Below are positions 6,628 to 41,485 of a stretch of DNA of 64,000 nt, in pieces. The notes under the pieces are model-generated. The model saw only the letters and a list, made by a program, of their open reading frames with translations. It had not been told where the DNA came from and searched no databases. The DNA comes from an uncultured Roseburia sp. GTDB taxonomy: Bacteria; Bacillota; Clostridia; Lachnospirales; Lachnospiraceae. Numbering within the stretch: position 1 is the first letter of the stretch; each line of letters opens with the position of its first letter. The DNA lies in NCBI GenBank assembly GCA_947642555.1, contig CANRSX010000019.1:1-64000 (forward strand), given 5' to 3'. The position numbers were made by a program, and so were the translations under genes.

Positions 6628-6639
6628 GGAGGAAGAGAG

Positions 6640-7839: not shown

Positions 7840-7852
7840 AAGGAGATAAAAG

Positions 7853-8341
7853 ATGAAACGATTTGAGGGAAAACTGGTATCGGAACATATAAAGGTGGGG
7901 ATCGTGGCATCCCGTTTTAACGAGTTTATCACGTCGAAGCTGCTGGAGGGGGCCGTGGACGGCCTGATCCGGCACGACGTCCGGGAGGAGGATATCTCTG
8001 TGGCCTGGGTGCCCGGGGCATTTGAGATTCCGCTGATCGCGTCCAAAATGGCAAAAAGCGGCGCTTATGATGCGGTCATCTGTCTGGGCGCGGTGATCCG
8101 GGGATCGACCAGCCATTACGACTATGTATGTAATGAGGTGTCGAAAGGAATCGCTGCCGTTTCGCTGGAGACCGGCGTCCCGGTCATGTTTGGCGTGCTC
8201 ACCACGGAGAATATCGAACAGGCGGTGGAGCGAGCCGGAACAAAAGCGGGAAATAAAGGGTACGACTGCGCGGTGGGCGCGATTGAGATGGTCAATCTGA
8301 TCCGGGAGCTGGAGGGATCCGGGAGCGGCGCAGAGCGGTAA
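7853..8341 (+). CDS. ribH: 6,7-dimethyl-8-ribityllumazine synthase
   Basis: The enzyme condenses the pyrimidine and butanone-phosphate products of RibD/RibBA. It forms icosahedral or pentameric shells. Seen here are [11 protein letters not shown] near the N-terminus, [22 protein letters not shown] with the catalytic histidine, and [16 protein letters not shown]. It has 162 residues, a GGAG site, and lies 13 bases after ribBA. A long hairpin terminates the operon. Confidence 0.96.
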
Positions 8342-14702: not shown

Positions 14703-14728
14703 AGTTTCGGAAAGGCAGGAAGAATAGG

Positions 14729-15562: not shown

Positions 15563-15619
15563 GAGAGCGCCGCAGAATCCGGCGCGGGAAATGTGAAAAG
15601 ACGGAAAGTGAGGGAAAGA

Positions 15620-16585: not shown

Positions 16586-16650
16586 GAAAGACGCTGCGTT
16601 TCCCGTATTCACAGCCGGGCAGGCGGATGACGGGATTAATGTGAGAGACA

Positions 16651-16677
16651 GCGGTGCGAAAAAAACCTTCGCACCGC
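16651..16677 (+). terminator. Intercistronic hairpin
   Basis: GCGGTGCGAA (16651-16660) pairs perfectly with TTCGCACCGC (16668-16677) around a 7-nt loop. It lacks a T-tract and sits just before the ribosome binding site of the next gene. It could adjust transcript stability or act as a weak attenuator. Confidence 0.5.
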
Positions 16678-16693
16678 GGAAAAGAGGAGGCGT

Positions 16694-24587: not shown

Positions 24588-25499
24588 GTGGGAAGATATC
24601 TGATAAAGCGCGTGTTGCTGGCAGTTGTGTCGATTTTTATCGTGAGTGCAATTACTTTTTTTGTGATGAATGCGATCCCGGGCGGGCCGTTCAATAAGGA
24701 GAAGGCCACGAGCGCGGAGGCGCAGCGGGTTCTCGAGGAGCGCTACAACCTGGATAAGCCGCTCGGCGAGCAGTATGTGCTGTGGCTTAAGAACATGGCG
24801 CACGGGGACTGGGGCGTATCCCTCCACAACGGCCGCGACATCTGGAATGAGATCACATCGCGTTTTGCGGTATCGGCGCGGCTCGGAGGTATGGCCGCTC
24901 TGGTGGCGATTGTGCTGGGACTGATTCTTGGGAGTATCGCCGCGCTGACGAGGAACCGTCTGCCGGACCGGTCGATTGTCTTTTTTACAACGCTGGGCAC
25001 GGCGATGCCGTCGTTTGTCCTCGCGACGCTGCTTCTTCTGATCTTCTGTCTGAAGCTTGGCTGGTTTCCGGTCTGGTCGTCGAGCAGTCCGAACTACGTG
25101 CTGCCGATCATCGCGTTAAGCGTGTACCCGATGGCATATATCACGCGTCTGACGAAGACGAGTATGCTCGATTCGCTCGGACAGGATTATGTGCGGACGG
25201 CGAAGGCGAAGGGCGTTCCGGGCTGGAAGGTGATTTTTAAGCATGCGCTCCGGAATGCGCTGATTCCGGTTGTTACATATGTCGGGCCGATGGTTGCCTA
25301 TATCCTGACCGGCTCGATGGTAGTGGAGAATATTTTTACGATTGGCGGTCTTGGATCGACCTTTGTGACCAGTATTACGAATCGTGATTATACGCTGATT
25401 ATGGCAGTGACGCTGTTCCTTGCGATACTGATGGTAGTCGCGAATCTGCTGACGGATATCGCGTATAAGCTGATTGACCCGCGGATCACGTTTGAGTAG
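24588..25499 (+). CDS. oppB: Oligopeptide ABC transporter permease, OppB type
   Basis: The 303-residue membrane subunit begins with MGRYLIKRVLLAVVSIFIVSAITFFVM and continues to IPGGPF, the OppB hallmark. It has six helices and an EAA-type loop (AKAKGVPGWKVIFKHALRNALIPVV). The start is GTG, with AGGAGA upstream. It leads the B-C-D-F-A operon; the transporter imports peptides delivered by the OppA at 28765. Confidence 0.93.
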   Translation: MGRYLIKRVLLAVVSIFIVSAITFFVMNAIPGGPFNKEKATSAEAQRVLEERYNLDKPLGEQYVLWLKNMAHGDWGVSLHNGRDIWNEITSRFAVSARLGGMAALVAIVLGLILGSIAALTRNRLPDRSIVFFTTLGTAMPSFVLATLLLLIFCLKLGWFPVWSSSSPNYVLPIIALSVYPMAYITRLTKTSMLDSLGQDYVRTAKAKGVPGWKVIFKHALRNALIPVVTYVGPMVAYILTGSMVVENIFTIGGLGSTFVTSITNRDYTLIMAVTLFLAILMVVANLLTDIAYKLIDPRITFE

Positions 25500-25537
25500 G
25501 GCGCGGGGAGTACAGGAACAGAAAGGACGGGGAGACC

Positions 25538-26626
25538 ATGCAGGAAAAGGATGTATTGAAGAAGAGACAGTTTTTGTCCGCGCAGGTGGATCTTAGCAGA
25601 TTCAGTCAGAAGAATTTTGAACAGGCGACGGAAGACGAGAAAAAGCAGCAGGACGTGATGGGCGAGTCCACCACCTTTTTTAAGGACGGTATGCGGCGCC
25701 TGCGCAAAAATCCGCTGGCAATGGGCAGTATTATCGTGCTGGCGCTGATCATAGCGATCATTATCATAGCGCCGTTTTTTGTGCCGTACAGCTATTCGGA
25801 GATTATCTCGGTGAACGGGGTGCGCGACAAGTCGGCGACGAACCTGGCGCCGTTTGAATACTCCAAGCTGGAGATGAAGTATATGGAAGAGACCGGCGAG
25901 AAGCTGTTCCCGCATATTTTCGGGACGGATAATCTGTGCAGGGATTATTTTATCCGCGTGATCTACGGCACCAGAGTCAGCCTTTCCATCGGTGTTGTGG
26001 CGTCTGTGATGGTGTTGATCATCGGACTGCTCTACGGATCGATCGCCGGATATTTCGGTGGGACGGTCGACCTGATCATGATGCGGATTGTGGATATCAT
26101 CTACTCGCTGCCGGATATGCTGATCATCATCCTGCTCTCCGTGGTGTTAAACGAGACGTTAAAGGGATATATCGAGGGGACGGTGCTGCAGTCCCTGGGA
26201 ACAAATATGATCTCGATTTTTATCGTGTTCGGCCTGTTATACTGGGTGAGCATGGCGCGTCTGATCCGGGGGCAGATCTTAACGATTAAAAATAACGAAT
26301 ATGTGCTGGCCGCGCGCTGTATCGGCACGAAGAACGGACGGATTTTAAGAAAGCATATCCTGCCGAACTGTCTGTCTGTGATCATCATCACGACGGCGCT
26401 TCAGGTGCCGAGCGCGATTTTTACGGAGAGCTACTTAAGCTTCCTGGGACTGGGTGTGGCGCGTCCGCTTACCTCGCTCGGGAGCCTTGCGAATGACGCC
26501 AGGGGCGCGATGCAGTCGTACCCGCTGCGATTAGTCATTCCGGCGGTGCTGATCTGTCTGATCGTGCTGGCGCTGAATCTGCTGGGCGACGGCCTCCGCG
26601 ACGCGTTTGACTCGAAGCTGAACTAG
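25538..26626 (+). CDS. oppC: Oligopeptide ABC transporter permease, OppC type
   Basis: The 362-residue protein has an N-terminal cytoplasmic extension of about 60 residues, helix 1 (PLAMGSIIVLALIIAIIIIAPFFVP), an extracytoplasmic loop of ordinary length, the FGTDNLCRDYFIRV block that precedes helix 2, and an EAA-type loop (CIGTKNGRILRKHILPN). It pairs with OppB. This is the normal-size OppC to compare with the enlarged one at 33777. Confidence 0.93.
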   Translation: MQEKDVLKKRQFLSAQVDLSRFSQKNFEQATEDEKKQQDVMGESTTFFKDGMRRLRKNPLAMGSIIVLALIIAIIIIAPFFVPYSYSEIISVNGVRDKSATNLAPFEYSKLEMKYMEETGEKLFPHIFGTDNLCRDYFIRVIYGTRVSLSIGVVASVMVLIIGLLYGSIAGYFGGTVDLIMMRIVDIIYSLPDMLIIILLSVVLNETLKGYIEGTVLQSLGTNMISIFIVFGLLYWVSMARLIRGQILTIKNNEYVLAARCIGTKNGRILRKHILPNCLSVIIITTALQVPSAIFTESYLSFLGLGVARPLTSLGSLANDARGAMQSYPLRLVIPAVLICLIVLALNLLGDGLRDAFDSKLN

Positions 26627-26650
26627 GAAACGGCAGGAAAGAGGAAAGAT

Positions 26651-27664
26651 ATGGACGAGAAGAGCAAATATATACTGGAAGTGAAGGATCTGCACACCAG
26701 TTTTTTTACGGATAACGGTGAGGTACAGGCGGTAAACGGGATCTCGTTTACCTTAGAGCCGGGAAAGACGCTCGGGATCGTGGGCGAATCCGGTTCCGGA
26801 AAATCTGTGACAGCGTATTCCATCATGCAGATTCTTGCGGAGACCGGTAAGATTACCGGGGGTGAAGTACGGTTTCACGATGAGGATATCACAAAGTGGA
26901 ACAGCAGACAGATGCAGAAGTTCCGCGGCGAGCGGTGCTCGATTATCTTCCAGGATCCGATGACGAGCTTAAACCCGGTGTTTACCGTGGGCAGCCAGCT
27001 GACAGAGGCAGTGCTTCTGCACACGGACAAGGATAAAAAACAGGCGTGGGCGCGGGCGGTCGAGATGCTGACCTTGGTCGGCGTGAACGAGCCGGAGAGC
27101 CGTATGCGCCAGTATCCGCATGAGCTCTCGGGCGGTATGCGTCAGCGTGTGATGATCGCGATGGCGCTGGTGTGCGAGCCGGATATCCTGATTGCGGATG
27201 AGCCGACGACGGCGCTCGACGTGACGATCCAGGCACAGATCCTTGAGCTGATGCAGGAGCTTCAGCAGAAGCTGGGAATGGCGATTATCATGGTGACGCA
27301 TGACCTCGGCGTCATCGCAAGTATGTGCGACGAGATTCTGGTCATGTATGGCGGGCGTGTCTGTGAGCGGGGGACCGCGGACGATATTTTCTACCGCCCG
27401 GCGCATGAATATACAAAGGGACTGCTCCGCTCCATCCCGAAGGCGGACAATATGAACGAGAAGCTGGTTCCGATCGGCGGTACGCCGATCAACCTGCTGC
27501 AGATGCCGGACGGGTGCGCGTTCTGTCCCAGGTGCGACGCGGCGATGAAAATCTGTCTGAGTGAAAAACCGGAGGAGCTGCGCGTGAGCGAGACGCATCT
27601 TGCGAGCTGCTGGATGAACATAAAGGATTTGTACGAGGCACAGGAGGAGGGCAGTCATGAGTGA
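26651..27664 (+). CDS. oppD: Oligopeptide ABC transporter ATPase, OppD type
   Basis: The 337-residue ATPase has Walker [10 protein letters not shown], signature LSGGMRQR, Walker [13 protein letters not shown] and switch histidine in MVTHDLG. The C-terminal oligopeptide-transporter extension has [14 protein letters not shown] cysteines, the probable iron-sulfur site of this family. It overlaps oppF by eight bases. Confidence 0.95.
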
Positions 27665-28700
27665 AAAGGAAAAGTACCTGTTAAAGGTAGATCACTTAAA
27701 GCAGTACTTCCCCGTGCGGCAGGGCTTTAAGACAATTCCGCTAAAAGCGGTGGATGATATTTCGTTTCAGGTGAGGCCGGGCGAGACGCTCGGGCTTGTG
27801 GGTGAGTCGGGATGCGGAAAGACGACGGTGGGGAGAACCCTGCTCCGCCTCTACCAGCCGACCGCCGGCCGGATTGAATTTGATGGCGAGGTACTTTTTG
27901 ACAGCGGAGAGCAGTACGACGAGAACGGACGCTTAAAGCTCGGCTCGGACGGAAAGCCCGTGATGGGAAAGAAAGTTGACGTCAATATGCTGCCGTACCG
28001 CAGACAGATGCAGATGGTGTTCCAGGATCCGTATTCTTCGCTGAATCCGAGGATGACGGTCGAGGATATCATCGGGGAGCCTCTGGATGTGCACAAGCTG
28101 TATGAGAACCGCGACGAGCGCCGTGAGAAGATTCTTTCCCTGATGGAGCTGGTCGGGTTAAATGCGGAGCACGCGATGCGCTATGCGCATGAGTTCTCCG
28201 GCGGACAGAGACAGCGGATCGGGATTGCCCGCGCGCTGGCGGTGAATCCGAAATTTATCGTATGTGACGAGCCGGTGTCGGCGCTTGACGTGTCGATCCA
28301 GGCACAGGTTGTCAATATGTTTGAGGAGCTGCAGGATAAACTGGGCGTGGCGTATCTGTTTATCGCCCACGATCTTCTTGTGGTGCATCATATATCGGAC
28401 CGTATCGCGGTCATGTATCTCGGCAAGATGATGGAGCTTGCCGATGCGGATGAATTAAATAACAATCCGATTCACCCGTACACGTTAAGCCTGCTCTCGG
28501 CGGTTCCGATCCCGGATCCCGAGACGGCGAGGAAGAGTAAGCGTATTGTGCTCGAGGGCGATGTGCCGAGTCCGCTTAAGATGCCGACCGGCTGTCCGTT
28601 CCGGACGAGGTGCCGGTACGCGACCGAGCAGTGCGCGGCCGAGATGCCGCAGTTAAAAGACCGGGGGAACGGCCATTTCGTTGCCTGCTGGAACAAATAG
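27657..28700 (+). CDS. oppF: Oligopeptide ABC transporter ATPase, OppF type
   Basis: The 347-residue ATPase starts with [14 protein letters not shown], typical of OppF. Walker [10 protein letters not shown], signature FSGGQRQR, Walker [13 protein letters not shown] and the switch HDLLVV are intact. The C-terminal cysteine cluster is [14 protein letters not shown]. It forms the ATPase pair with OppD. Confidence 0.95.
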
Positions 28701-28764
28701 CGGTCTGAATCAGGTTTTATCCCATAGCGGGTTAAAGCATAAATATTTTAAAGGAGGAACTACT

Positions 28765-30573
28765 ATGAAAAAGAAACTGGTATCTGTATTACTGGTTGCA
28801 AGCATGGCGCTTGGCCTTACCGCCTGCGGAAATAAAGACAATTCCGCAAACAGCGGCGCAGGCGCGGACAATGCGGGCAACGCAGGGGGTAATGCGAACG
28901 TGGAAAGCACAGAGGCTGCCGGCGGCGACGACGCTGCTGACGCAGGCGCGGACAATGCGGACAATGCAGGGGGATCGACCTTAAACACTGACACAGGCAT
29001 TCTCTACATCAACCTGGCTTCCGAGCCGGATTACCTTGACCCGGCGTTAAACAGCTCCGTGGACGGAGGCTGCCTGGCTGTAAACTCTTTCGCAGGCTTA
29101 TATACCTACGACAACACCGGAGCGCTGGTACCGCAGCTTGCGACGGATATGCCGGAGGTGTCCGATGACGGAACCGTTTATACGGTGAAGTTAAAGGAGT
29201 CCCAGTGGAGCAACGGCGATCCGCTGACCGCACAGGATTTTGTGTACAGCTGGAACCGTGTCATCAACCCGGATACCGCGGCTGACTATGCGTATCTGTT
29301 TGACGTGATTGCCCGCAACGGCGATGCTCTCGCAGTTGAGACACCGGATGACTACACGATGGTGATCACCTTAAACAGCCCGTGCCCGTATTTCAACGAC
29401 TTAATGGCATTCCCGACCTTCTTCCCGGTGCATCAGGCAACCGTGGAGGCAGCGGATACGGAAGTTCCCGGCACATGGGCGCAGGAGGCAGGCTTTGTCT
29501 GCAACGGCGCTTATACGCTGCAGTCCTGGAACCACAATGAGAGCATGGTTTATGTAAAGAACCCGAATTACTATGACGCTGCAAATGTGACCATGGATGA
29601 GCTTCACTTCATGTTAAGCGCGGACGACACCGCAATCTATGCCGCTTACAATGCAGGCGACTTAGACTACATCGATTCCGTGCCGACAGATGAGATCTCT
29701 TCGTTAAACGGCGTGAATCCGGAGTTCGGTATCCTTGACAACCTTGGAACCTACTATGTCGGATTTAACGTAAACGATCCGATTTTCGACGGCAAGACCG
29801 TTGAGGAGGCTGCAAAGATGCGCCAGGCGATGAACCTGCTGGTTGACCGTCAGTTCATCGTGGAGAACGTAGGACAGTCCGGACAGGTTGCTGCTGATTC
29901 CTTTGTTCCGCTTGGAATGGCGGATGGTAACGGCGGCGAGTTCAAGCAGGCTGACACCAGCTACTATGATGCGACCGCTACCGGCGCAGGCATGGTGGAA
30001 GAGGCGAAGGCCCTGTTTGAGGAAGCAGGATTTACCTTTACAGACAATGGCGACAATACATACACGATTGATCCGGCGCTCAACCTGACCTATCTGACAA
30101 ACGACGGCAGCGGCCATATCGCAGCGGCTGAGTCCATGCAGCAGGATTTCGCGCTTCTCGGCATCAATATGGAGATCGAGTCTGAGGACTGGAACGTATT
30201 CCTTGAGAACCGTAAGAACGGTAACTTCACGATCGCACGTGAGGGATGGCTTGCGGATTACAATGACCCGATCAATATGTTAGAGCTCTTTACCTCTGAT
30301 TCCGGTAACAACGACATGCAGTTAGGTAAGGGCAGCAGCGATGCGGCTCCGGACTGGGCGGATTACGACGCGCTGATCAAGGAGATCCGCAATACCACAG
30401 ATTTTGCTGCACGTGTGGATCTGCTGCATCAGGCAGAGGATATGCTCATGGAGACAGGAGCAGTGATCCCGCTTTACTACTACAATGATATCTATATGCA
30501 GAAGCCGAACGTAGACGGCATCTACGCGACCGTTTTCGGCATGAAGTACTTTATGTACGCGACCAAGAACTAA
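28765..30573 (+). CDS. oppA: Oligopeptide-binding lipoprotein, OppA type
   Basis: The 602-residue SBP_bac_5-family binding protein has a signal peptide with lipobox GLTAC, then a low-complexity Ala/Asn/Gly/Asp linker to about residue 75, and the binding domain beginning LYINLASEPDYLDPALNSS. Later blocks such as DGTVYTVKLKESQWSNGDPLTAQDFVYSW are diagnostic. I chose ATG 28765, with AAGGAGG upstream. It closes the first operon and is followed by a strong terminator. Confidence 0.95.
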   Translation: MKKKLVSVLLVASMALGLTACGNKDNSANSGAGADNAGNAGGNANVESTEAAGGDDAADAGADNADNAGGSTLNTDTGILYINLASEPDYLDPALNSSVDGGCLAVNSFAGLYTYDNTGALVPQLATDMPEVSDDGTVYTVKLKESQWSNGDPLTAQDFVYSWNRVINPDTAADYAYLFDVIARNGDALAVETPDDYTMVITLNSPCPYFNDLMAFPTFFPVHQATVEAADTEVPGTWAQEAGFVCNGAYTLQSWNHNESMVYVKNPNYYDAANVTMDELHFMLSADDTAIYAAYNAGDLDYIDSVPTDEISSLNGVNPEFGILDNLGTYYVGFNVNDPIFDGKTVEEAAKMRQAMNLLVDRQFIVENVGQSGQVAADSFVPLGMADGNGGEFKQADTSYYDATATGAGMVEEAKALFEEAGFTFTDNGDNTYTIDPALNLTYLTNDGSGHIAAAESMQQDFALLGINMEIESEDWNVFLENRKNGNFTIAREGWLADYNDPINMLELFTSDSGNNDMQLGKGSSDAAPDWADYDALIKEIRNTTDFAARVDLLHQAEDMLMETGAVIPLYYYNDIYMQKPNVDGIYATVFGMKYFMYATKN

Positions 30574-30741: not shown

Positions 30742-32676
30742 ATGGGAGGAAAAAAACTGCTGTCGCTGCTTCTTACGGCGGCGATAACGGTATCGGCGGC
30801 AGCCTGCGGAGGCGGCGGGACCGTGACAAATAATACGGATGATGATGCATCGGGCGCTGTGACGGGCGGGGAGGATCGCGGCACGGAGCAGGCGGAGGAT
30901 ATGGAGGATACCGTGGCGGAAGTACGGCCCGATACCCCGTCGGGGCAGCTGATCATCGGGACCATCACGGATCTCGAGAATGAATTCTATGATGCGACGT
31001 TCAGTAACAGCGCGGCCAATTATGCGCTGTATTCGCTTCTGCACGGGTACACTACGGTGGTAGTCACAAAGGATGGAGAGTGGATTACGGATCCGACTGT
31101 TGTGGCGGGACTTCAGACCAGTGAGAATGAGGACGGTACGAAGACGTTTACAATGACGTTAAACGACGGGCTGGTGTGGTCGGACGGTTCCGCGGTGACG
31201 GCGAAGGACTATGTATTTGCTCTTTTGCTGGAATCCTCTCCCGAGATGATGGGAGTGGATCATTATTCTGCGACCGGGTATACATTCCTGGACGGCTGGG
31301 AAGCCTATAACAACGGGGAGACGAAGCAGTTAAAGGGCGTGCGCCTGGTGGATGATCTGACGTTTTCCGTCACGGTGGCTGCGGAGGAGCTTCCGTTCCA
31401 TTATGATCTGGCATATGCGGCGGTGACGCCGAGACCGCTCGCGGTGATCGCGCCGGGATGCGACATCGCAGACGGGGAGGAAGGCGCCTCAGTCAGCGGG
31501 GATTTTTCCACAGACGTCCTGCTGACCACGATCAACGATCCGGACACCGGGTACCGCTATCATCCGCAGGTGACCTGCGGCGCGTACAGCCTGGAGAGCT
31601 ATGATGCGGCCAGCAGACAGGGCACATTTGTGGTAAATGAGCGGTATGCGGGCGATTATAAGGGCGCGAAGCCTGTCATTGAAAAGCTGATCATCAGGAC
31701 GGTTTCGCCGGACACGCAGATCAATGAGCTTAAGGCCGGGACGGTGGATCTTCTGACCGAGATTTCCGGCGGGGAGACGATCGAGGCGGGGCTTGATCTC
31801 GTGGACGAGGGACTGATCCAGAAGCATACCTATTTCCGCACCGGATACGGCATGTTAAAGTTTGACTGTTCCCAGTTCCCGACGGATTCCGTGAGGGTCC
31901 GCCAGGCGATCGCGCTGTGCCTGGACCGCAATGAATTTGCGCGGATTTACAGCGGCGGTTATGCGACGATTGTACACGGAGAGTACGGCCTTTCCCAGTG
32001 GGAGTATCAGGAGTCAAAGGACTGGCTCGACGCCAATCTGAATACCTACGAAAAGGATATTGATGCGGCAAAGGAAAAGCTCGCGGCGGACGGCTGGACG
32101 TTAAATGCGGACGGCGGTGAGTATCAGGACGGCGACGGCACGCGTTACAAAGAGGTCGACGGGGAGCTGGTGCCGCTGGTGATCCAGTGGTGTAATGTGG
32201 AGGGCAATCCGGTCGCGGAGCTGCTTGCCACGATGCTTCCGGAGGCGATGGAGGAGGCCGGGATGGAGCTTGTGCCGACCACGACGGATTTTCCGACATT
32301 GCGGGCGTCCTTAGACCACAAGGCGGAGAATATGTATAACATGTACAATATGGGGACGAATTTTTCCCTGCAGCATTCTCCGTGGTATTATTTTTCTACG
32401 GATGAGCATTATATGGGAAGCTTAAACAGCAACTGGATCGTGGACGAGGAGCTGTCGGAGGCCGCGCTGGCGTTAAAGACGATCCCGATTGAGGATAAGG
32501 AGCAGTGGCTTGCCGCATGGCAGAATTATCAGAAGGTATGGAATGAGAAGCTTCCGAATATCCCGCTGTATTCCGACGAGTATCACGATTTTTACAGCAA
32601 TAAGCTGAAAGGCTGGGATACCACATCCATCTGGTCGTGGGAGGGCGCGGTTCTGGATGCGTGGGTAACCGAATAG
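30742..32676 (+). CDS. Second oligopeptide-binding lipoprotein, OppA type
   Basis: The 644-residue SBP_bac_5-family protein has a signal peptide, a lipobox SAAAC near residue 22, a short acidic linker, and blocks FTMTLNDGLVWSDGSAVTAKDYVFA and VRQAIALCLDRNEFARIYSGG. It differs clearly from the first OppA, so the two systems probably take different peptides. GGAGG lies 13 bases before the ATG. An intercistronic terminator separates it from its permeases, which should keep the binding protein in excess. Confidence 0.93.
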   Translation: MGGKKLLSLLLTAAITVSAAACGGGGTVTNNTDDDASGAVTGGEDRGTEQAEDMEDTVAEVRPDTPSGQLIIGTITDLENEFYDATFSNSAANYALYSLLHGYTTVVVTKDGEWITDPTVVAGLQTSENEDGTKTFTMTLNDGLVWSDGSAVTAKDYVFALLLESSPEMMGVDHYSATGYTFLDGWEAYNNGETKQLKGVRLVDDLTFSVTVAAEELPFHYDLAYAAVTPRPLAVIAPGCDIADGEEGASVSGDFSTDVLLTTINDPDTGYRYHPQVTCGAYSLESYDAASRQGTFVVNERYAGDYKGAKPVIEKLIIRTVSPDTQINELKAGTVDLLTEISGGETIEAGLDLVDEGLIQKHTYFRTGYGMLKFDCSQFPTDSVRVRQAIALCLDRNEFARIYSGGYATIVHGEYGLSQWEYQESKDWLDANLNTYEKDIDAAKEKLAADGWTLNADGGEYQDGDGTRYKEVDGELVPLVIQWCNVEGNPVAELLATMLPEAMEEAGMELVPTTTDFPTLRASLDHKAENMYNMYNMGTNFSLQHSPWYYFSTDEHYMGSLNSNWIVDEELSEAALALKTIPIEDKEQWLAAWQNYQKVWNEKLPNIPLYSDEYHDFYSNKLKGWDTTSIWSWEGAVLDAWVTE

Positions 32677-32699
32677 CGGAATAAAAAAACCGGCAAAAG

Positions 32700-32747
32700 A
32701 TCCCCAGGATTGCTTCGTGCTTTATCCCGGCAATCCCGGGGATTTTT
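32700..32747 (+). terminator. Intercistronic terminator between binding protein and permeases
   Basis: A stem starts at 32700 (ATCCCCAGGATTGC) and pairs with GCAATCCCGGGGAT (32730-32743) with one mismatch, followed by TTTT. Partial read-through would feed the permease genes. Confidence 0.75.
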
Positions 32748-32774
32748 ATACGGTAAAAGCGGAGGAGCAGATCT

Positions 32775-33758
32775 ATGCGGAAAGGAAGATATCTGGCAAA
32801 ACGACTGATCTATATTCTTTTTGTATTCTTCATCATTTCGATCCTGATGTTTGCCATTTACAAATCGCTGCCCGGGGATCCGGTCAGGATGATGATGGGG
32901 GACAATGTCAGACCGGAATCCTACCAGCAGCAGTACGACACGATCCGGGAACAGCTGGGGCTGGACGATCCCCTGCCGGTGCAGTACGTGAAATGGATGG
33001 GAAATATGCTGACCGGGGACTTCGGATATTCCACCGAGTACAGAAAACCGGTGAAGGAAGTGATCGCGACGCCGATGCAAAATACGGTTCTGCTGAATCT
33101 TTGCTCCATGGTGCTCGTGTTCCTGATCTCCGTGCCGCTTGGGATTATGACGGCGGTGAAAAAGAACGGTTTTTTTGACAAGGCCGTTCAGGTGATTACA
33201 ATCGTAGGATACAGCGTGCCGGGATTTGTGATTGCGCTCCTTGCGATCTATGTGTTTGCAATCCGTTTTCCGGTTTTTCCGATCAGCGGCGTAAAGACGG
33301 CCGGGTTTACGGGAACCGGCATGGAGGCGTTTCTGGATCAGGCGAAACACATGGTGCTGCCGGTGCTTGTCATGTCCGTCGGAGGGATCGGAAGCATCAC
33401 GCGGTATGTGAGGGCGGCGATGATCGATGTGCTTCGCATGGATTATATCCGGACGGCGCGCGCAAAGGGACTGAAGGAAAAGGTGGTCATCTACGTGCAC
33501 GCGTTTCGGAACGCGCTGATCCCGATCGTCACGGTGACGACCTGGTGGCTGATCGGACTGTTCGGCGGTTCGATTGTCATAGAATCGATCTTTTTGTGGG
33601 ACGGTCTCGGAAAGATGATGATTTCCGGCTTAAATCAGAGAGATTTTGCCGTTGTGCTGGCAATGCAGATGTTTTACGTCATTCTGTCGCTGGTCGGAAA
33701 TGTGCTGATGGATATCGCTTATACGCTGGTGGATCCGCGGGTAAGGCTGGAGAATTAA
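32775..33758 (+). CDS. Second oligopeptide permease, OppB type
   Basis: The 327-residue protein begins RKGRYLAKRLIYILFVFFIISILMFAIY and has LPGDPV, the OppB marker. The coupling loop is ARAKGLKEKVVIYVHAFRNALIPIV, and it ends in DPRVRL as usual. A GGAGGAG site precedes the ATG. It partners the RCC1-containing OppC that follows. Confidence 0.93.
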   Translation: MRKGRYLAKRLIYILFVFFIISILMFAIYKSLPGDPVRMMMGDNVRPESYQQQYDTIREQLGLDDPLPVQYVKWMGNMLTGDFGYSTEYRKPVKEVIATPMQNTVLLNLCSMVLVFLISVPLGIMTAVKKNGFFDKAVQVITIVGYSVPGFVIALLAIYVFAIRFPVFPISGVKTAGFTGTGMEAFLDQAKHMVLPVLVMSVGGIGSITRYVRAAMIDVLRMDYIRTARAKGLKEKVVIYVHAFRNALIPIVTVTTWWLIGLFGGSIVIESIFLWDGLGKMMISGLNQRDFAVVLAMQMFYVILSLVGNVLMDIAYTLVDPRVRLEN

Positions 33759-33776
33759 GGCAGAGGGAGAGCGGCT

Positions 33777-35582
33777 ATGCAGGAAAACACAAATAAGAAG
33801 AAAAAAAGGTCGACTGTCAGAAGGGCGGCCTCGCGGATGATGACAGGGGAAATTCTGTCGGAGGAGCAGGAGAGAATTCTGACGCCGGGCCGGATGGTGT
33901 GGGAAAGCTTTGTCAGGGATAAGGTGGCGATGGCGGGGGTTGTCTGTTTCCTGTTTCTTTTTCTCTGCTGTATGGCGCTGCCGTATTTCCTGCCGATCGA
34001 TCTGTATTATCAGGATGTGACGCAGGCAAATGTGGCGCCGGGGTTCGGGATGCTGAAGGTGCCGTCGGGGCTTTCGGGAAATGTCAGGCAGGTTGACCTG
34101 GGAAGCACGTTTTCCGTGGGGCTCGATCAGGCGGGAAACGTGTATGAGTGGGGGAGCTTTCCGAATAAAAAGCTCCGCAATCTCCCGTCCGGGATGGGAA
34201 AGCTGGCGCAGATTTCCGCGGGGCTTGACCATGTGGTCGCGCTGACAGAGGACGGAGAGGTCGTCACCTGGGGAAATGACCGGATGGGGCTTGGCGCCGT
34301 ACCGGCGGAGCTTCGCGCGGGGGAGACAGTGAAGGAGGTTTACGCGGGCTACCAGATTTCACTGGCGCTCACAGAGTCCGGCCGGCTGTATCACTGGGGA
34401 AACAGCTACCTGATCGACCTTAAGTTTCCCGAGGGGGTGCAGGGAAATATCGCCGGCTTTGCGGCAAACACGGATGTTGTGATGGCGCTGACAGAGGACG
34501 GGGAGGTGGCGGTGCTTTCCGGTAAGCCTGGCGCCTATACGGCGGTCCCGGAGGAGATTCAGGGCAGGGTCGTGGAACTGGCGCTTTCGGACGAGAGTGC
34601 GGCGGCGCTGACAGAGGACGGAGTCGTTCATACCTGGGGAAATAATATCAGGGGCAGCCGTGATGTGCCAGATGCGCTTCAGGGGCATGTGAAGGAGGTG
34701 CGCGGCGGGCGGTATCATTTTGTGGCGCTCTTAGACGACGGCACGGCGGCGGCCTGGGGGGACGATACCTTTGGCCAGAGCAGCGTGCCCCGGATCAAAG
34801 AGCCGGTGAAGGAGATCGCGGCGGGCTATTACGGGAGCTATGTGACGGGGGAGAGCGGCCGGGTGTACGGGTTCGGGCTTGACGGGTATCTGATGGGAAC
34901 GGACGCGTTCGGACGCGATATCTTCCGGCGGCTGTTAAAAGGAGGCCGGATGACAATGACAGTCGGCGCGATTGCGGTGATTATCTCTACATTTATAGGC
35001 GTGATCGTCGGCGGCATTTCCGGCTATAAGGGAGGACGGATCGATAATCTTCTGATGCGTTTTACGGAGATCGTCTCCTCGCTGCCGTTTCTGCCGTTTG
35101 CCATTATCCTGTCGGCGATCATCGGCAACAGCATCTCGGAGACGCAGCGGATCATCATGATCATGGTGATCTTAGGGCTGCTTTCCTGGCCGGGCATCGC
35201 GCGGCTGGTGCGGGGCAGCGTGCTCGCGGAGCGGGAGCAGGAGTTTGTCACAGCCGCGAAATCGCTTGGCGTGAAGGAATCCGGGATTATCTTCCGGCAC
35301 ATCCTGCCGAATGTGATCACCGTGATCATCGTCAATGCGACGCTGGATTTTGCGACCTGCATGCTGACGGAATCCTCGCTCTCCTTTATCGGATTCGGGG
35401 TGACGGAGCCGAATGCGACCTGGGGAAACATGTTAAACGGCGCCCGCAGCGCAACCGTGATCGAGAGCTACTGGTGGCGCTGGGTATTTCCGGCGCTGGT
35501 GCTTGCAGTCTGCACGATCAGCATCAACTGTATCGGCGATGGCCTGCGTGACGCCATCGACCCGAAATCCAGGGAAAGGTAG
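33777..35582 (+). CDS. OppC-type permease with a seven-repeat RCC1-like propeller in its first external loop
   Basis: At 601 residues this protein is about twice a normal OppC. Residues 1-75 are the usual cytoplasmic start and helix 1 (VAMAGVVCFLFLFLCC). Residues about 101-372 hold seven repeats of about 40 residues, most ending in forms of VALTEDGEVVTWGN, the RCC1 beta-propeller pattern; seven is the classic blade number. The normal OppC resumes at LMGTDAFGRDIFRRLLKGG (372 onward) with helices 2-6 and coupling loop AKSLGVKESGIIFRHILPN. The insert therefore lies outside the membrane, facing the binding protein. The frame is uninterrupted, and OppB lies 18 bases upstream. The role of the insert is unknown; partner or substrate binding is inference. 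Confidence 0.92.
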   Translation: MQENTNKKKKRSTVRRAASRMMTGEILSEEQERILTPGRMVWESFVRDKVAMAGVVCFLFLFLCCMALPYFLPIDLYYQDVTQANVAPGFGMLKVPSGLSGNVRQVDLGSTFSVGLDQAGNVYEWGSFPNKKLRNLPSGMGKLAQISAGLDHVVALTEDGEVVTWGNDRMGLGAVPAELRAGETVKEVYAGYQISLALTESGRLYHWGNSYLIDLKFPEGVQGNIAGFAANTDVVMALTEDGEVAVLSGKPGAYTAVPEEIQGRVVELALSDESAAALTEDGVVHTWGNNIRGSRDVPDALQGHVKEVRGGRYHFVALLDDGTAAAWGDDTFGQSSVPRIKEPVKEIAAGYYGSYVTGESGRVYGFGLDGYLMGTDAFGRDIFRRLLKGGRMTMTVGAIAVIISTFIGVIVGGISGYKGGRIDNLLMRFTEIVSSLPFLPFAIILSAIIGNSISETQRIIMIMVILGLLSWPGIARLVRGSVLAEREQEFVTAAKSLGVKESGIIFRHILPNVITVIIVNATLDFATCMLTESSLSFIGFGVTEPNATWGNMLNGARSATVIESYWWRWVFPALVLAVCTISINCIGDGLRDAIDPKSRER

Positions 35583-35591
35583 GTGGGACGG

Positions 35592-36557
35592 ATGAGTCTG
35601 CTTGAGGTGGAGCACCTTCACACATATTTTCAGACAAAGCGCGGGCTGATCAAAGCGGTCAATGACGTGACGCTGTCTTTAAATGCCGGCGAGACGCTGG
35701 GGATTGTCGGGGAGAGCGGGAGCGGGAAAAGCGTGACCGCGATGAGCATTCTGCGGCTTCTGGACGGGAACGGGTATGTGGACAGCGGTGCGATCCGGTT
35801 TGACGGGAGGGACCTTCTGCAATGCTCGAAACAGGAGATGTATGAGATTCGCGGAAATGAGATCTCCGTGATTTTTCAGGAACCGATGACCTCCTTAAAT
35901 CCTGTTTTTACGCTGAGACGGCAGCTTGGCGAGGTATTTTGCATCCATCAGGGCATGGGGAAAAAACAGGCGGCAGAAGAGACGGTGCGGATGCTCTCGG
36001 AGGTAAGAATCCCAAACCCGGAGCGCGTGGCGTGGCAGTATCCGTTTCAGCTCTCCGGCGGGATGCGGCAGCGGGCGATGATCGCGATGGCGCTTGCCTG
36101 CAGGCCGAAGCTTCTGATCGCGGACGAGCCGACGACAGCGCTCGACGTCACGATTCAGGCGCAGATCTTAGAGCTGATGAACGATATGAAGCGAAAACTC
36201 GGGACCTCGATTTTATTTATCACGCATGATCTCGGGGTGATCAATGAGATGGCGGATCAGGTTGCGGTGATGTACTGCGGTCAGGTAGTGGAGATGGCGG
36301 ACGCGAAAACCATTTTTGCGGAGGGCAGCCGCGCCCACCCTTATACGACAGGTCTGATGACCTCCATTCCACGCCTGGATACGCCCAAAGGGGAGACATT
36401 AGACCCGATTCCGGGCTCTGTCCCGAACCCGCTGTATCTGCCGGAGGGCTGTAAGTTTGCGGACCGCTGCAAATACTGTAAGGAGCGGTGCAGGCAGGAG
36501 GAGCCCGCGCTGGCCGAGGTGGAACCGGGACATCAGATCCGGTGCTTTTATGCGTGA
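35592..36557 (+). CDS. Second oligopeptide transporter ATPase, OppD type
   Basis: The 321-residue ATPase has LLEVEHLHTYFQTKRG at the start, Walker [10 protein letters not shown], signature LSGGMRQR, Walker [13 protein letters not shown] and a C-terminal CKFADRCKYCKERC cluster. I chose ATG 35592, with AGGTGGG upstream; an in-frame GTG lies nine bases earlier. It follows the RCC1 permease by nine bases. Confidence 0.94.
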   Translation: MSLLEVEHLHTYFQTKRGLIKAVNDVTLSLNAGETLGIVGESGSGKSVTAMSILRLLDGNGYVDSGAIRFDGRDLLQCSKQEMYEIRGNEISVIFQEPMTSLNPVFTLRRQLGEVFCIHQGMGKKQAAEETVRMLSEVRIPNPERVAWQYPFQLSGGMRQRAMIAMALACRPKLLIADEPTTALDVTIQAQILELMNDMKRKLGTSILFITHDLGVINEMADQVAVMYCGQVVEMADAKTIFAEGSRAHPYTTGLMTSIPRLDTPKGETLDPIPGSVPNPLYLPEGCKFADRCKYCKERCRQEEPALAEVEPGHQIRCFYA

Positions 36558-36648
36558 AATGAGTGCGCCCGTAAGGCGCTGCCGGCGGCCCGGACAGGCA
36601 GCGGCGGCCCGGGCGGGCAGGGCCGTGTATCACAGAGAGGAGCAGGTC

Positions 36649-37683
36649 ATGCAGACAGAACAAAAGGTACTGCTTCGCATCCGCGACGAAAAGCAGTATT
36701 TTCCAGTGAAAAAAACAGGATTTCGCGAAGCGCAGAAGTATGTGAGGGCGAACGACGGGATTTCGCTGGACATCTATGAGGGTGAGACGCTCGGGCTGGT
36801 CGGGGAATCCGGCTGCGGGAAATCGACGTTTGGGAGAACGATACTACAGCTGACGCCGCAGACGGAAGGGCAGATCCTGTATGAAAAGGAAGGACAGATG
36901 CTGGATTTAAAGGCGCTGCCAGAGGAGGCGATGCGCGGACTGCGGCGGGAGCTGCAGCTGATTTTCCAGGATCCGTATTCCTCTCTGAATCCGAGGATGA
37001 CCGCGGGACAGATCATCGCGGAGGGGCTGACTTCGCATGGAATTTACAAAAAGGGGGATCCGGCGCTGCGGGAGTATGTGCTTCTGGTGATGAAGCAGTG
37101 CGGGCTGGATTCCTATATGTTCGGCAGATATCCGCACCAGTTTTCCGGCGGACAGCGGCAGCGGATCGGGATTGCGCGCAGCCTGGCCTTAAAGCCCAGA
37201 TTTGTCGTCTGTGATGAGGCGGTGTCCGCGCTGGACGTCTCGATCCAGTCCCAGATCTTAAATCTGCTGATGGAGAGGAAGGAGCAGGAGCATCTGACGT
37301 ATCTGTTTATCACGCATGACTTAAGCGTGGTGAAGTACATCAGCGACCGGATCGGCGTGATGTACCTGGGGAATATCGTGGAGCTGGCGGATGCAGAGGA
37401 GCTGTTTGCGCGGACGCTGCACCCGTACACACAGGCGCTGCTCTCCGCGATTCCGACGACGGACGCCGGGGGAGGAGGAGGGCGGAAACGGATCCTGTTA
37501 AAAGGGGATATCCCAAGTCCGGTGGATCCGCCGCCCGGCTGCAAATTCCACACCAGGTGCGGACGGTGCCGCGAGAAGTGCAGACAGGAGACGCCGGAGC
37601 TGAGAGACTACGGGAACGGCCATCTGGCGGCCTGCCATTTCCCATGTGAGACGACGGATGCAGGAGGATTGCATGTTTCTTAA
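36649..37683 (+). CDS. Second oligopeptide transporter ATPase, OppF type
   Basis: The 344-residue ATPase has RIRDEKQYFPVKKTG at the start, Walker A GESGCGKST, signature FSGGQRQR, Walker B FVVCDEAVSALD (Ala instead of the usual Pro after Glu) and a C-terminal CKFHTRCGRCREKC cluster. Start ATG 36649 has AGAGAGGAG upstream. The frame is open further upstream over the end of OppD, but that stretch is not family-like. Confidence 0.94.
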   Translation: MQTEQKVLLRIRDEKQYFPVKKTGFREAQKYVRANDGISLDIYEGETLGLVGESGCGKSTFGRTILQLTPQTEGQILYEKEGQMLDLKALPEEAMRGLRRELQLIFQDPYSSLNPRMTAGQIIAEGLTSHGIYKKGDPALREYVLLVMKQCGLDSYMFGRYPHQFSGGQRQRIGIARSLALKPRFVVCDEAVSALDVSIQSQILNLLMERKEQEHLTYLFITHDLSVVKYISDRIGVMYLGNIVELADAEELFARTLHPYTQALLSAIPTTDAGGGGGRKRILLKGDIPSPVDPPPGCKFHTRCGRCREKCRQETPELRDYGNGHLAACHFPCETTDAGGLHVS

Positions 37684-37876
37684 AAAAGTAAAACGGGTGA
37701 TCGACGTGGAGCGCGCGGAGGAAGAGTTCGAACAGCGCATGGAGGATGTGACGCTGGAGAAAAACGACCGGCCCGCCATGATCCTTGCGGCGCTTCTCGT
37801 GTTTGTCCCGGCGCTGCTTCTGGTGCTCGGGATTTTCGGGCTGGCGCTGTGGGGGGTCTTTTTCCGGTATTTTTAG
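37673..37876 (+). CDS. Small single-helix membrane protein
   Basis: The 67-residue protein has a charged N-terminal half (FLKKVKRVIDVERAEEEFEQRM) and one C-terminal helix (MILAALLVFVPALLLVLGIFGLALWG). GCAGGAGG lies before ATG 37673, and the gene overlaps the end of the second OppF by 11 bases, so it is the last gene of that operon. It may be an accessory subunit of the transporter; this is inference from position. Confidence 0.7.
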   Translation: MFLKKVKRVIDVERAEEEFEQRMEDVTLEKNDRPAMILAALLVFVPALLLVLGIFGLALWGVFFRYF

Positions 37877-37917
37877 TATATCTGGGAGAGCTGTCAGAGA
37901 GACAGATTGGAGAATTT

Positions 37918-38931
37918 ATGGACGTAAAAAAGCAGGTCAGAAACAGTACGGTAGATTTTCTTGTATTTACAAAGCAGAATGGGGAGGACGGTATTGAAGT
38001 CAGGGTTCATGATGAAGATGTATGGCTGACTCAGAAGAGCATGGCGCAGTTGTTCGATTGTTCGACAGATAATATAGGATTACATCTGAAAAATATTTTT
38101 GCCAGCGGAGAGCTGGATGCAGAAGCAGTTACCGAGAAATCCTCGGCAACTGCTTCTGATGGTAAAAAATATAGGATGAAATTTTATAATCTTGATGCAA
38201 TTATTTCTGTAGGTTATCGAATTAATTCTATTCGTGCAACCCAGTTCAGACAGTGGGCAACGAAGATTTTAAAGACTTTTACGGTTCAGGGGTATGTGCT
38301 GGATAAAAAACGCCTTGAAAATGGACAGATATTTGATGAGGAGTATTTTGAACATTTACTTGATGAAATCAGGGAGATTCGTGCAAGTGAGAGGAAATTT
38401 TATCAAAAGATAACAGATATATATGCGACAGCGGTGGACTATTCTCCGACGGCGGCTGTATCAAGGGATTTTTTTGCCATGGTGCAGAATAAACTGCATT
38501 ATGCGATTCATCGCCATACGGCGGCAGAGGTGATTGTGGAACGTGCTGACCATAGAAAAGAATATATGGGGCTGACCACCTGGAAAAATGCTCCTGCGGG
38601 TAAAATCGTAAAAGCGGATGTCAGTATAGCAAAGAACTATCTGACAAAAGAGGAACTGCAGGATTTAAACCAGTTTGTTACCATGTATCTGGACTATGCG
38701 GAGAGACAGGCAAGGCGGCAGATTCCCATGACAATGGAGGACTGGGCGAAAAGGCTGGATGTATTTCTTGCATTCAATGAGGAAGAGGTCTTGAGAGATA
38801 AGGGAAGGGTTACCGCTGAAATTGCAAAAAGTTTTGCAGAGAGCGAGTTTGAAAAATACAGAATTATTCAGGACGGATTATACCAAAGCGATTTTGATAA
38901 GCTGGTGTCTGGAATTGAAACAGGACAGTGA
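37918..38931 (+). CDS. RhuM-family protein
   Basis: The 337-residue protein matches the RhuM family (virulence RhuM, named in Salmonella): VWLTQKSMAQLFDCSTDNIGLHLKNIFASGEL, then YNLDAIISVGYRINSIRATQFRQWATKIL, and a C-terminal helical domain. The start is a helix-turn-helix-like or KilA-N-like region. Biochemical function is unproven. GGAG precedes ATG 37918. The gene is more AT-rich than its neighbours and sits between peptide genes without clear connection, so it is probably a recent arrival. Confidence 0.88.
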   Translation: MDVKKQVRNSTVDFLVFTKQNGEDGIEVRVHDEDVWLTQKSMAQLFDCSTDNIGLHLKNIFASGELDAEAVTEKSSATASDGKKYRMKFYNLDAIISVGYRINSIRATQFRQWATKILKTFTVQGYVLDKKRLENGQIFDEEYFEHLLDEIREIRASERKFYQKITDIYATAVDYSPTAAVSRDFFAMVQNKLHYAIHRHTAAEVIVERADHRKEYMGLTTWKNAPAGKIVKADVSIAKNYLTKEELQDLNQFVTMYLDYAERQARRQIPMTMEDWAKRLDVFLAFNEEEVLRDKGRVTAEIAKSFAESEFEKYRIIQDGLYQSDFDKLVSGIETGQ

Positions 38932-39033: not shown

Positions 39034-39714
39034 ATGATTTTTTCCGGGAACGGTTCGGACCGCAAGAGGTCGAAGGAACAGAAAAAGGAATTAAAAGCCG
39101 GCTTAAAGGAGCTTCGGCGCCAGCTGACCGCGGCCGGGGTGGAAAAGGGAGCGGCTGCGGAGTACATAAAGGAGCTGCAGGAGACCTTAGAGCGCCGGGA
39201 GAGCCTGCGATCCGGCTATGAGGAGGCGCGGGGCCACTTAAAGCGCGCCAGGGAGTCGATTGCGCGTCTGTCCGACTGTATGGGGGAGAGCCCTGCGAAC
39301 GAGGTTGCGGCGAGCTTACAGGAGCTGGTGGCGGAGCTTAAGGGCGTGTATCATGACTGCCTGATCCGCGAGGACGATACGGATTTCGGGGCGACGGCCG
39401 CCGGGATCGCGCAGATGGCCGCGCAATACGGCGCGGATTCGTCCGGAATGCAGGCGATTATGCTGCGGAGCGAGCTGGAGAATGCGAAGGCTGTGATGGA
39501 CGACGTGGCCGGTTTTGCGGCGCCGGATTTTTTTGCGCTGGCGTACTATCTGGGACATGAGGAGAGAGGGACGCTCTCGGAGATGGAAAACGGGCAGAGA
39601 AATCAGTTTGTGAGCGATTACACGAAGGAGCATTTTCTGAATGCGTTTCTGCGCGAATGCCGCAAGGCGGGCGCGGAGCCGCGTGTATGGGAAATGATAC
39701 ATCACGGGATGTGA
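39034..39714 (+). CDS. Coiled-coil protein of unknown function
   Basis: The 226-residue soluble protein is dominated by charged helices in its first 90 residues (KEQKKELKAGLKELRRQL, ELQETLERRESLRSGYEEARGHLKRARES), predicted as coiled coil. The second half is an alpha-helical globular part. No motif is recognised. GGAGG precedes the ATG. It lies 23 bases before the oligopeptidase gene and is probably co-transcribed with it. Confidence 0.7.
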   Translation: MIFSGNGSDRKRSKEQKKELKAGLKELRRQLTAAGVEKGAAAEYIKELQETLERRESLRSGYEEARGHLKRARESIARLSDCMGESPANEVAASLQELVAELKGVYHDCLIREDDTDFGATAAGIAQMAAQYGADSSGMQAIMLRSELENAKAVMDDVAGFAAPDFFALAYYLGHEERGTLSEMENGQRNQFVSDYTKEHFLNAFLRECRKAGAEPRVWEMIHHGM

Positions 39715-39736: not shown

Positions 39737-41485
39737 TTGAATACAGAATGGTCATTAGACGGGATTTATAAGGGACTGGAAGATCCGGCCTATGAGAAAG
39801 ATTTTGCCGCGCTGTGCGACGCGCAGCGGGAATTCGCTGCATGCCTTGCGCGTGCAAAGGAGCAGGACTGGAAGGAACGCGCGGAGGGGCTGCTGTCCTG
39901 TCTGGAGGAGATCAGCCGGCTGGAGATGAAGCTCGGCGGTTATATCGCGCTGCGGCAGTCCGTGAACACGGAGGATGGGAATCTGATGGCGCAGATGAAC
40001 CGCCTGATGAAGCTGGAGGCTGAACGGAAATCTACGGAGGCGGCGATGGAGAAGCTGCTTGCCGGGATCCCGGACGTGGATGCGCTGGCAAAGGAGAGTG
40101 AGATCATCGGGGCGTACCGGGCGTATCTCACACGGCTGAAAGAGAAATCGTCCCATCTGCTTTCCGATGAGGTGGAGGAGATGGTGTCCGCGATGAACAT
40201 GAGCGGCGGCTCCGCGTGGGGACAGCTGCAGTCCTATCTGACCTCCACGGTGAAGGTGGAGTATGACGGCGGGCAGGTGACGCTCTCCCAGATCCGCAAT
40301 CTCGCCTACAGCCCGGATCAGGCCACACGGAAGGCAGCCTATGAGGCGGAGCTGGCGGCTTATGATAAGATCGGTGACTCCGTCGCCTTTGCGCTGAACC
40401 ACATCAAAAACCAGGTGACGATGCTCGCCAGAAAGAGGGGCTATGATTCGCCGATTGCGATGACGTTAGAGCAGGCGCGGATGAAGCGTGAGACCTTGGA
40501 CGCCATGATGGAGGCGATCCGGGAGTATCTGCCGGTCTTTCACAGATACCTGCGCAAAAAGGGCGAGCTTCTGGGCCATGAAAACGGGCTTCCGTGGTAT
40601 GATCTGTTTGCGCCGGTCGGGAAGGCGGGACGCTCGTTTACGATTGAGGAGGCGAAGGAGTATCTGTGCGGGACCTTCCAGAGCTTTTCGCCGGAGATGT
40701 CCGCCATGATGAAGCAGGCGTTTGAGGAGGAGTGGATTGATTTTTACCCGAGGAAGGGAAAAGAGGGCGGCGCGTTCTGCGCGGGCGTCCCATGCTTAAA
40801 GCAGAGCAGGATCCTGACCAATTACGACGGGTATTTCGGCTCGATCGGAACGCTCGCGCATGAGCTCGGCCACGCGTTCCACAACCGTCAGGTCGAGAAT
40901 GAGCGGCCGCTCAATCAGGATTATCCGATGCCGGTGGCGGAGACCGCATCCACGTTCAACGAGGTGCATCTGGGGCATTACGCGCTTCGCACCGCGACGG
41001 GGGAGGAGCGGTTAAATCTGCTCGAGAATGATTTAAAGGAGCAGACGCAGACGATCGTGGACATTTATTCCAGATATCTGTTTGAGACGGCGGTATTTGA
41101 GCAGAGTCAGGAAAAATTTCTGATGGCGGACGATTTAAAGGAGATGATGCTCGCCGCGCAGCGGGAAGCCTACGGCGACGGCCTGGATCCGTCCTGCCTG
41201 CACCCGTATATGTGGGTCTGCAAGAGCCATTACTACAGCGCGGGCTTAAGCTTTTATAATTTCCCGTACGCGTTTGGCAATCTCTTTGCACTCGGTCTGT
41301 ATGCCCTGTTTTTAAAAGAGGGGGAGACGTTTGTCGGAAAATATAAGGAAATGCTGCGGGCGACCCCGTGCGTCACGATGGAGGAAGCGGGCGCGATGAT
41401 GGGGATTGACCTGACGAAGAAGGCATTCTGGGAGGAAAGCCTTGCGCAGATCGCACAGAATGTGGAGGCGTTCTGCGAGATGTGA
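39737..41485 (+). CDS. pepF: M3-family oligoendopeptidase F
   Basis: The 582-residue zinc metallopeptidase cleaves short peptides in the cytoplasm. The active site is TLAHELGHAFH, with the third zinc ligand glutamate in the MPVAETASTFNE block downstream. The N-terminal helical domain and length are standard for PepF/PepB. The start is TTG with AAGGAGG. Its position soon after two peptide transport operons suggests it digests the imported peptides. Confidence 0.93.
   Translation: MNTEWSLDGIYKGLEDPAYEKDFAALCDAQREFAACLARAKEQDWKERAEGLLSCLEEISRLEMKLGGYIALRQSVNTEDGNLMAQMNRLMKLEAERKSTEAAMEKLLAGIPDVDALAKESEIIGAYRAYLTRLKEKSSHLLSDEVEEMVSAMNMSGGSAWGQLQSYLTSTVKVEYDGGQVTLSQIRNLAYSPDQATRKAAYEAELAAYDKIGDSVAFALNHIKNQVTMLARKRGYDSPIAMTLEQARMKRETLDAMMEAIREYLPVFHRYLRKKGELLGHENGLPWYDLFAPVGKAGRSFTIEEAKEYLCGTFQSFSPEMSAMMKQAFEEEWIDFYPRKGKEGGAFCAGVPCLKQSRILTNYDGYFGSIGTLAHELGHAFHNRQVENERPLNQDYPMPVAETASTFNEVHLGHYALRTATGEERLNLLENDLKEQTQTIVDIYSRYLFETAVFEQSQEKFLMADDLKEMMLAAQREAYGDGLDPSCLHPYMWVCKSHYYSAGLSFYNFPYAFGNLFALGLYALFLKEGETFVGKYKEMLRATPCVTMEEAGAMMGIDLTKKAFWEESLAQIAQNVEAFCEM

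Follow-up and report, generated by a model that had tools for sequence, protein, structure and literature searches.

Peptide ABC importers supply nitrogen to many anaerobes, and it is at the outer face of the importer that substrates are chosen and the substrate-binding protein (SBP) docks. An oligopeptide importer operon in the window (the whole 64,000-nucleotide stretch of DNA analyzed here) raises the question of why one of its permease subunits, OppC2, carries a seven-bladed RCC1-like propeller at this face. Our analysis places OppC2 within an old, probably single-origin group of propeller-bearing OppC proteins that belong to a dedicated Opp/App-type oligopeptide importer, an arrangement more general than the initial annotation of this DNA had thought.

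Architecture of the propeller-bearing permease

The OppC2 gene (33777..35582, + strand) is an intact ORF encoding 601 aa. A single frame contains OppC_N (residues 36-88; 43 bits, cut-off 23.9), followed by RCC1_2 repeats and then BPD_transp_1 (residues 408-599; 116.5 bits, cut-off 26.4), all above their Pfam cut-offs, and the predicted fold of the core agrees with solved OppC. The initial annotation had described an OppC core interrupted after helix 1 by RCC1-type repeats and resuming in frame at LMGTDAFGRD. Both descriptions are borne out by the Pfam domains and the predicted structure: transmembrane helix 1 (TM1) spans residues 49-71 (33921..33989, + strand), a helix in the predicted structure that lies within a hydrophobic segment at 44-78, and the permease core continues in the same ORF from residue 371 (YLMGTDAFGRD; 34887..35579, + strand). 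The NCBIfam Opp4C equivalog scores 322.6 bits, under its 350-bit cut-off, and OppC2 is therefore not filed as Opp4C; judged by its sequence, it would nonetheless work like an Opp4C from outside the equivalog.

The seven RCC1 blades occupy residues 103-370 (34083..34886, + strand), as located by Pfam repeats and predicted structure. Repeats start at residues 103, 143, 185, 225, 265, 305 and 344, with lengths of 40, 42, 40, 40, 40 and 39 residues, and the seventh has 27 residues before running into the permease at GYLMGTD. A profile check against RCC1, proposed with the initial annotation, gave a divided result: RCC1_2 (PF13540) matches with 133.6 bits over six stretches (cut-off 22), whereas PF00415 (RCC1) reaches 8.5 bits, under its Pfam cut-off of 21.7. 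The profile for a whole RCC1-like domain, PF25390, likewise falls under its cut-off in OppC2 (120.7 bits against 150), and many relatives of OppC2 do have a precomputed PF00415 match. The seven-bladed propeller itself held up, since the predicted structure contains seven blades and matches a solved seven-bladed member of the RCC1/BLIP-II lineage. When single blades were matched to those of six distant relatives, the right blade was found for 3 to 6 of 7.

Closure of the ring probably involves the segment before the first blade. The stretch NVAPGFGMLKVPSGLSGN (residues 85-102; 34029..34082, + strand) follows the VPxxLxG consensus seen in linkers between blades: P96, L99 and G101 are in register, and P96 has a weighted frequency of 0.96. 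On these grounds residues 85-102 probably close the ring, most likely by supplying the piece that is missing from blade 7. Both membrane connections would then exit the ring at an opened C-D loop of blade 7, from which strand topology suggests that the A-B-loop face is tethered towards the transporter.

The propeller is placed outside the membrane by three observations: the distribution of charges, the lack of a hydrophobic segment in residues 85-370 and the known topology of OppC. Residues 1-48 hold 11 K+R and 7 D+E, and the loop at 72-381 holds 23 K+R and 40 D+E; within 85-370, hydropathy averaged over 19 residues reaches at most 0.89, and no hydrophobic segment was found there by this measure. 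An external insert had been claimed from the outset, and these values agree with it. The TM1-TM2 loop of OppC seems to accept domains. Another OppC (locus L106, G069:C2:57115-60816) has its own insert of ~200 residues at the same TM1-TM2 site, which by eye is beta-rich and is without a propeller match.

Distribution and origin

A query with the propeller region recovered at least 761 proteins at E <= 0.001 (7998 candidates scored), and a family profile recovered at least 1967 relatives (7994 candidates scored). Among 120 matches listed, nearly all are ~600 aa with precomputed OppC and RCC1 domains. On genome contigs, 253 stretches matched a pattern and 235 of them encode a relative; the best 80 of these 235 form the locus set used below, and come mainly from Lachnospiraceae and Oscillospiraceae according to record titles and tree labels. 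Other carriers are a Tissierellia bacterium, Fenollaria, Acetivibrio and Spirochaetota (Treponema, Sphaerochaeta and others). The window's genome itself encodes a second propeller OppC, 48% identical, on contig C4; beyond these two copies it yielded no further RCC1_2 match at E <= 1e-5. Given this second copy and the 235 relatives in 253 stretches, the view that the insert is specific to the second operon does not stand.

In an even phylum sample the full-length form is present in 14/398 genomes, counted there as matches starting before query position 60; within the family it is present in 11/299 genomes. Both figures include the window's own genome and are probably lower bounds, since scoring was restricted to three or four top candidates in each genome. 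No propeller OppC was found in G685, the one other genome of the window's genus in the family sample. The propeller is thus patchily kept, and plain OppCs do without it.

This recurrence also bears on whether the insert could be a misassembly, a frameshift chimera or a neutral, decayed insertion, which we consider vanishingly improbable. In favour of such an origin stands a single fact, the overall GC content, which reaches 0.626 in the insert against 0.574 in the OppC2 core and 0.539 in the window. GC3 of the insert (0.748) lies close beside that of the core (0.762). Misassembly or decay is ruled out by matched genes free of stops and frameshifts in all 80 relatives, by the recurrence of the full-length form across both genome samples and by its constant size in 95 sequences.

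In a tree of permease cores, a branch with support 100/96 separates all 95 propeller forms from 22 plain OppCs; 6 of these 22 rows are from the window's own genome, and some have long branches, for which the tool gave a warning. A single origin of the propeller OppC is probable; the tree allows it and does not prove it. The distance from TM1 to G370 is 293-317 residues in 95/95 fused sequences, which gives no sign of blade gain or loss. Spirochaete rows are nested within Clostridia rows, suggesting horizontal transfer. Free-standing RCC1 proteins are mostly 23-37% identical to the propeller, and no clear donor was found among these matches.

The combination is accordingly unstudied as far as searched, rather than unseen. 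The initial annotation had called it an architecture not described; in the literature searched this is still so, and in sequence databases, with at least 761 proteins, it is abundant. Full-text searches yielded no paper whose title or abstract opening deals with a propeller-bearing permease, and among the papers listed by a broader search on bacterial extracellular RCC1 propellers there was none either; the words "permease" and "transporter" are absent from PMC9218822. Source names for the few relatives seen are "ABC transporter permease subunit" and "peptide/nickel transport system permease protein", and PHROGs returned a permease-like family of unknown function together with weak RCC1 matches.

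Operon partners and likely cargo

In the window the operon has the gene order A-B-C-D-F, with gaps of 98 (A-B), 18 (B-C) and 0 (C-D) bases, all on the + strand. OppA2 (30742..32676) is an SBP_bac_5 substrate-binding protein (PF00496, 153.9 bits) and probably a lipoprotein, with a lipobox SAAAC recognized by eye. The permease subunit OppB2 (32775..33758; PF00528, PF19300) precedes OppC2, which is followed by the ATPases OppD2 (35583..36557; PF00005, PF08352) and OppF2 (36649..37683; PF00005 and PF08352 on 36637-37683). The listed OppF2 ORF opens at 36457, and we place its start at ATG 36649, where the start codon was checked. Across the 80 loci OppB was recognized in 80, OppA in 77, OppD in 79 and OppF in 73, the gaps all falling at contig ends except in L039 (1-7848), which has OppB, C, D and F and no recognizable OppA in 7.8 kb upstream. 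In a tree of SBPs, 47 OppAs of propeller operons (a thinned set) are split at a branch with support 100/100 from 20 further SBPs, among them the window's OppA1. Within this sample, propeller OppCs are thus associated with a single group of SBPs.

An M3-family, oligopeptidase F-type gene (39737..41485, + strand; PF01432 119.9 bits, PF08439 37.1 bits) lies downstream of the operon. M3-family peptidases were found in the flanks of 27/77 propeller loci versus 1/20 plain OppC loci, with a Fisher p of 0.011 that is too small because related loci were taken as independent; the fetched flanks averaged 16 kb for propeller loci and 20 kb for plain loci, the latter being the best plain OppC matches, from other genomes or other operons. 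A count of 33/80 M3 loci was set aside, as it includes short, weak matches. All four M3 members scanned have PF01432 and the oligopeptidase F N-domain. Among 450 flanking ORFs from 63 loci, two groups occur at 10 or more loci, namely M3-type peptidases (19; Pfam-checked on one member) and ABC-type proteins (13; judged by eye). Two kinds of M3 gene can be distinguished: a downstream kind, 66-70% identical to that of the window (L009, L061, L065, L067, L072), and one that is mostly upstream and about 25-30% identical to it. From sequence and context, the M3 gene of the window is a probable functional partner of the importer, whose cargo, to judge indirectly from the peptidase neighbours, is likely to be oligopeptides.

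OppF proteins of many propeller operons differ from that of the window by an insert. The span from Walker A to the Q-loop measures 144-249 residues outside the window's clade versus 46-47 within it. Of 94 propeller loci, 52 have the insert, 32 are without it and 10 are unreadable, the window's OppF2 belonging to the insert-free group; none was found in 20 plain loci, where 14 alignments are uninterrupted, one is a short hit at a locus end and five loci have no OppF hit. On the core tree, all 32 insert-free OppFs belong to a clade of 33 rows (support 100/99), which is most simply explained by one gain close to the root followed by one loss. In Coprococcus comes the insert is predicted by AlphaFold2 to form helices at 101-123, 129-161, 166-192 and 197-219 (pLDDT 84-98 per block).

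Conservation and co-divergence

Conservation was calculated from 95 sequences weighted at 70% identity (effective number 29.8). The most conserved positions are, as expected, the W, G, P and H residues that build the repeats. Beyond them, high weighted frequencies were obtained for R169 (0.88), Q193 (0.88), R312 (0.82, with K 0.12), D151 (0.75) and Y352 (0.66, with F 0.24), and for the family motif Q353-N354 (0.95 and 0.85). At residues 353-354 of OppC2 (34833-34838), in blade 7, the window protein instead reads G-S, and its close relatives vary; to judge from these substitutions, this spot may have changed function in the window's clade. Mean conservation falls from 0.482 in A-B loops to 0.439 in B-C turns, 0.418 in C-D loops and 0.337 in linkers, and the excess of the A-B loops over turns and linkers is modest, 578 of 20000 permutations being as high. 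The A-B loops of blades 6, 7, 1, 2 and 3 average 0.55 and those of blades 4 and 5 average 0.32. This most conserved crescent lies around the point of attachment to the membrane and so may be an interface within the protein itself. The two membrane linkers score 0.55 and 0.66, versus 0.48 for the propeller and 0.63 for the core.

Co-divergence with operon partners was assessed in 57 loci. The set was reduced from 80 loci to 75 with all partners plus the window, to 67 that were complete and to 57 that were non-redundant, leaving out incomplete proteins at contig ends (down to 76 residues) and near copies. With the other partners held constant, divergence of the propeller correlates with that of its own transmembrane domain (partial correlation 0.45; 0/400 permutations as high), OppB (0.23; 1/400) and OppA (0.19; 3/400), and not with OppD (0.03; 268/400) or OppF (-0.01; 364/400). 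By single blade, the OppA signal lies in blades 4, 5 and 6 (5, 8 and 9 of 400), and OppD, the cytoplasmic control, gives scattered signals in blade 1 (0.19; 8/400) and blade 2 (-0.14; 27/400). Partial Mantel tests give too many positives, and this one may be biased towards OppA and OppB, whose evolution is faster than that of OppD and OppF. The pattern is weak evidence from sequence divergence, and fits a module positioned beside OppA and OppB.

Possible roles of the propeller

The data show the architecture, the fold prediction, the grouping on a single branch, an OppA group exclusive within the sample and the operon order, and against this background the function of the propeller can be considered. 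Three functions had been suggested, of which docking of OppA is mildly favoured and direct capture of a ligand comes second. We tentatively propose, at somewhat short of even confidence, that the propeller is an SBP-side module for OppA docking and peptide hand-over. OppC would have gained a closed seven-bladed RCC1/BLIP-II-like propeller in its TM1-TM2 loop, in what was probably a single and ancient event. The propeller would sit at the pore's external mouth, in the OppC position equivalent to that of the OppB scoop motif. There it may act as a protein-binding module that keeps OppA near the entrance and helps peptide hand-over, after which intracellular peptidases would cut the peptides. BLIP-II reportedly grips its partner with the A-B-loop face. 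The docking reading draws on the exclusive OppA group, co-divergence with OppA and OppB, the conserved linkers, the M3 association and the DppB scoop; the patchy retention of the propeller, the plain OppCs that lack one and the L039 operon without a recognizable OppA count against it. According to PMC12136057, E. coli DppB has in its TM1-TM2 region a scoop motif that enters the SBP cleft, and DppC differs there; SBP binding to the translocator is described in the same source as stable in M. tuberculosis and weak in E. coli. A possible, if doubtful, alternative is that the propeller is itself a ligand receptor, a second recognition element bound to the permease: peptides, or polymers bearing them, would be captured outside the cell by its conserved face and handed to OppA or the pore. 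R169, Q193, R312, D151 and Y352, non-structural residues that lie on the A-B-loop face apart from one in a C-D loop, stay strongly conserved across the family while OppA falls to 31% identity, and fixed residues beside a fast-changing partner would suit a constant ligand. Equivalent positions in BLIP-II are said to bind its target. Such a receptor fits poorly with the change of the family Q353 N354 in the window protein and with propeller divergence that weakly tracks OppA and OppB, and importers of this class already possess a ligand receptor.

It is unlikely that the propeller instead anchors or positions the importer, through peptidoglycan, another surface protein or a secreted protease, where peptides arise. 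Surface RCC1 domains of about seven repeats do occur with the wall-linking LPxTG in bee-gut Bifidobacterium (PMC4449606), and many record titles name gut or digester bacteria; propeller OppCs are also found, however, in spirochaetes, whose envelope differs, and their constant size and conserved short linkers suggest a fixed place by the pore, not a free grappling arm. Highly unlikely, in our estimate, is a regulatory axis in which the propeller senses and the OppF insert passes on or receives a signal. In E. coli DppB contacts DppD and DppC contacts DppF (PMC12136057), so that the propeller and the OppF insert would share the same half of the transporter; the insert is found at propeller loci and at none of the plain loci, and is predicted as a well-folded helical domain. 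Against such an axis, the insert is absent from all 32 OppFs that could be read in the window's clade while the propeller is kept there, and propeller divergence does not track OppF. A broader scenario, still rather unlikely, is that two modules were gained on this half, apparently near the same ancestral branch: a propeller serving as second receptor or SBP clamp, and an OppF helical domain that was later lost in the window's clade. If true, this would define a Type I importer class that shares substrate recognition between SBP and permease.

Comparison with known systems sets the propeller apart in several ways. Relative to known OppC and DppC permeases (E. coli OppC 8z21 and DppC 8z1v; M. 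tuberculosis OppABCD and DppABCD), OppC2 has ~280 extra residues, forming the TM1-TM2 propeller. BLIP-II, a Streptomyces beta-lactamase inhibitor (1jtd, 3qi0), is of the same RCC1/BLIP-II lineage but free and secreted, whereas the ring of OppC2 is opened in the blade 7 C-D loop and tethered there to two transmembrane helices; beta-lactamase inhibition is not proposed for OppC2, nothing giving reason to expect it. The Bifidobacterium bee surface RCC1 proteins are likewise extracytoplasmic, with seven repeats on average, but are LPxTG-anchored with 2-4 domains per protein and 7-24 genes per genome (PMC4449606), in contrast to one domain per permease for the propeller OppC, with two such genes in the window's genome. 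The DppB scoop is, like the propeller, a periplasmic TM1-TM2 element of a permease, and meets the SBP (PMC12136057); it comprises ~30 residues of the B subunit, while the propeller, at ~280 residues, belongs to the C subunit, and a contact between it and the SBP is a proposed one. The propeller offers a natural deletable module for asking which of two steps, SBP docking or direct capture, is limiting for peptide uptake, and an importer class with its own SBP group could sharpen substrate predictions where names say only generic permease.

Neighbouring genes

A plain Opp operon (24588-30573) lies directly upstream of the propeller operon (30742-37683), and the same tandem of plain and propeller operons was found again in five relatives (L010, L012, L020, L033, L072). 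Between the propeller operon and the M3 peptidase gene of the window are a RhuM-family gene (37849-38931; PF13310, 357.5 bits) and an ORF of 226 aa (39034-39714) with no Pfam match at E <= 0.001. In the second propeller operon of this genome (L124), the OppF gene (6553-8085) carries the insert, and M29 and M20 peptidase genes (14196-16820), in place of an M3 gene, lie just upstream of the OppA gene of this contig C4 copy.
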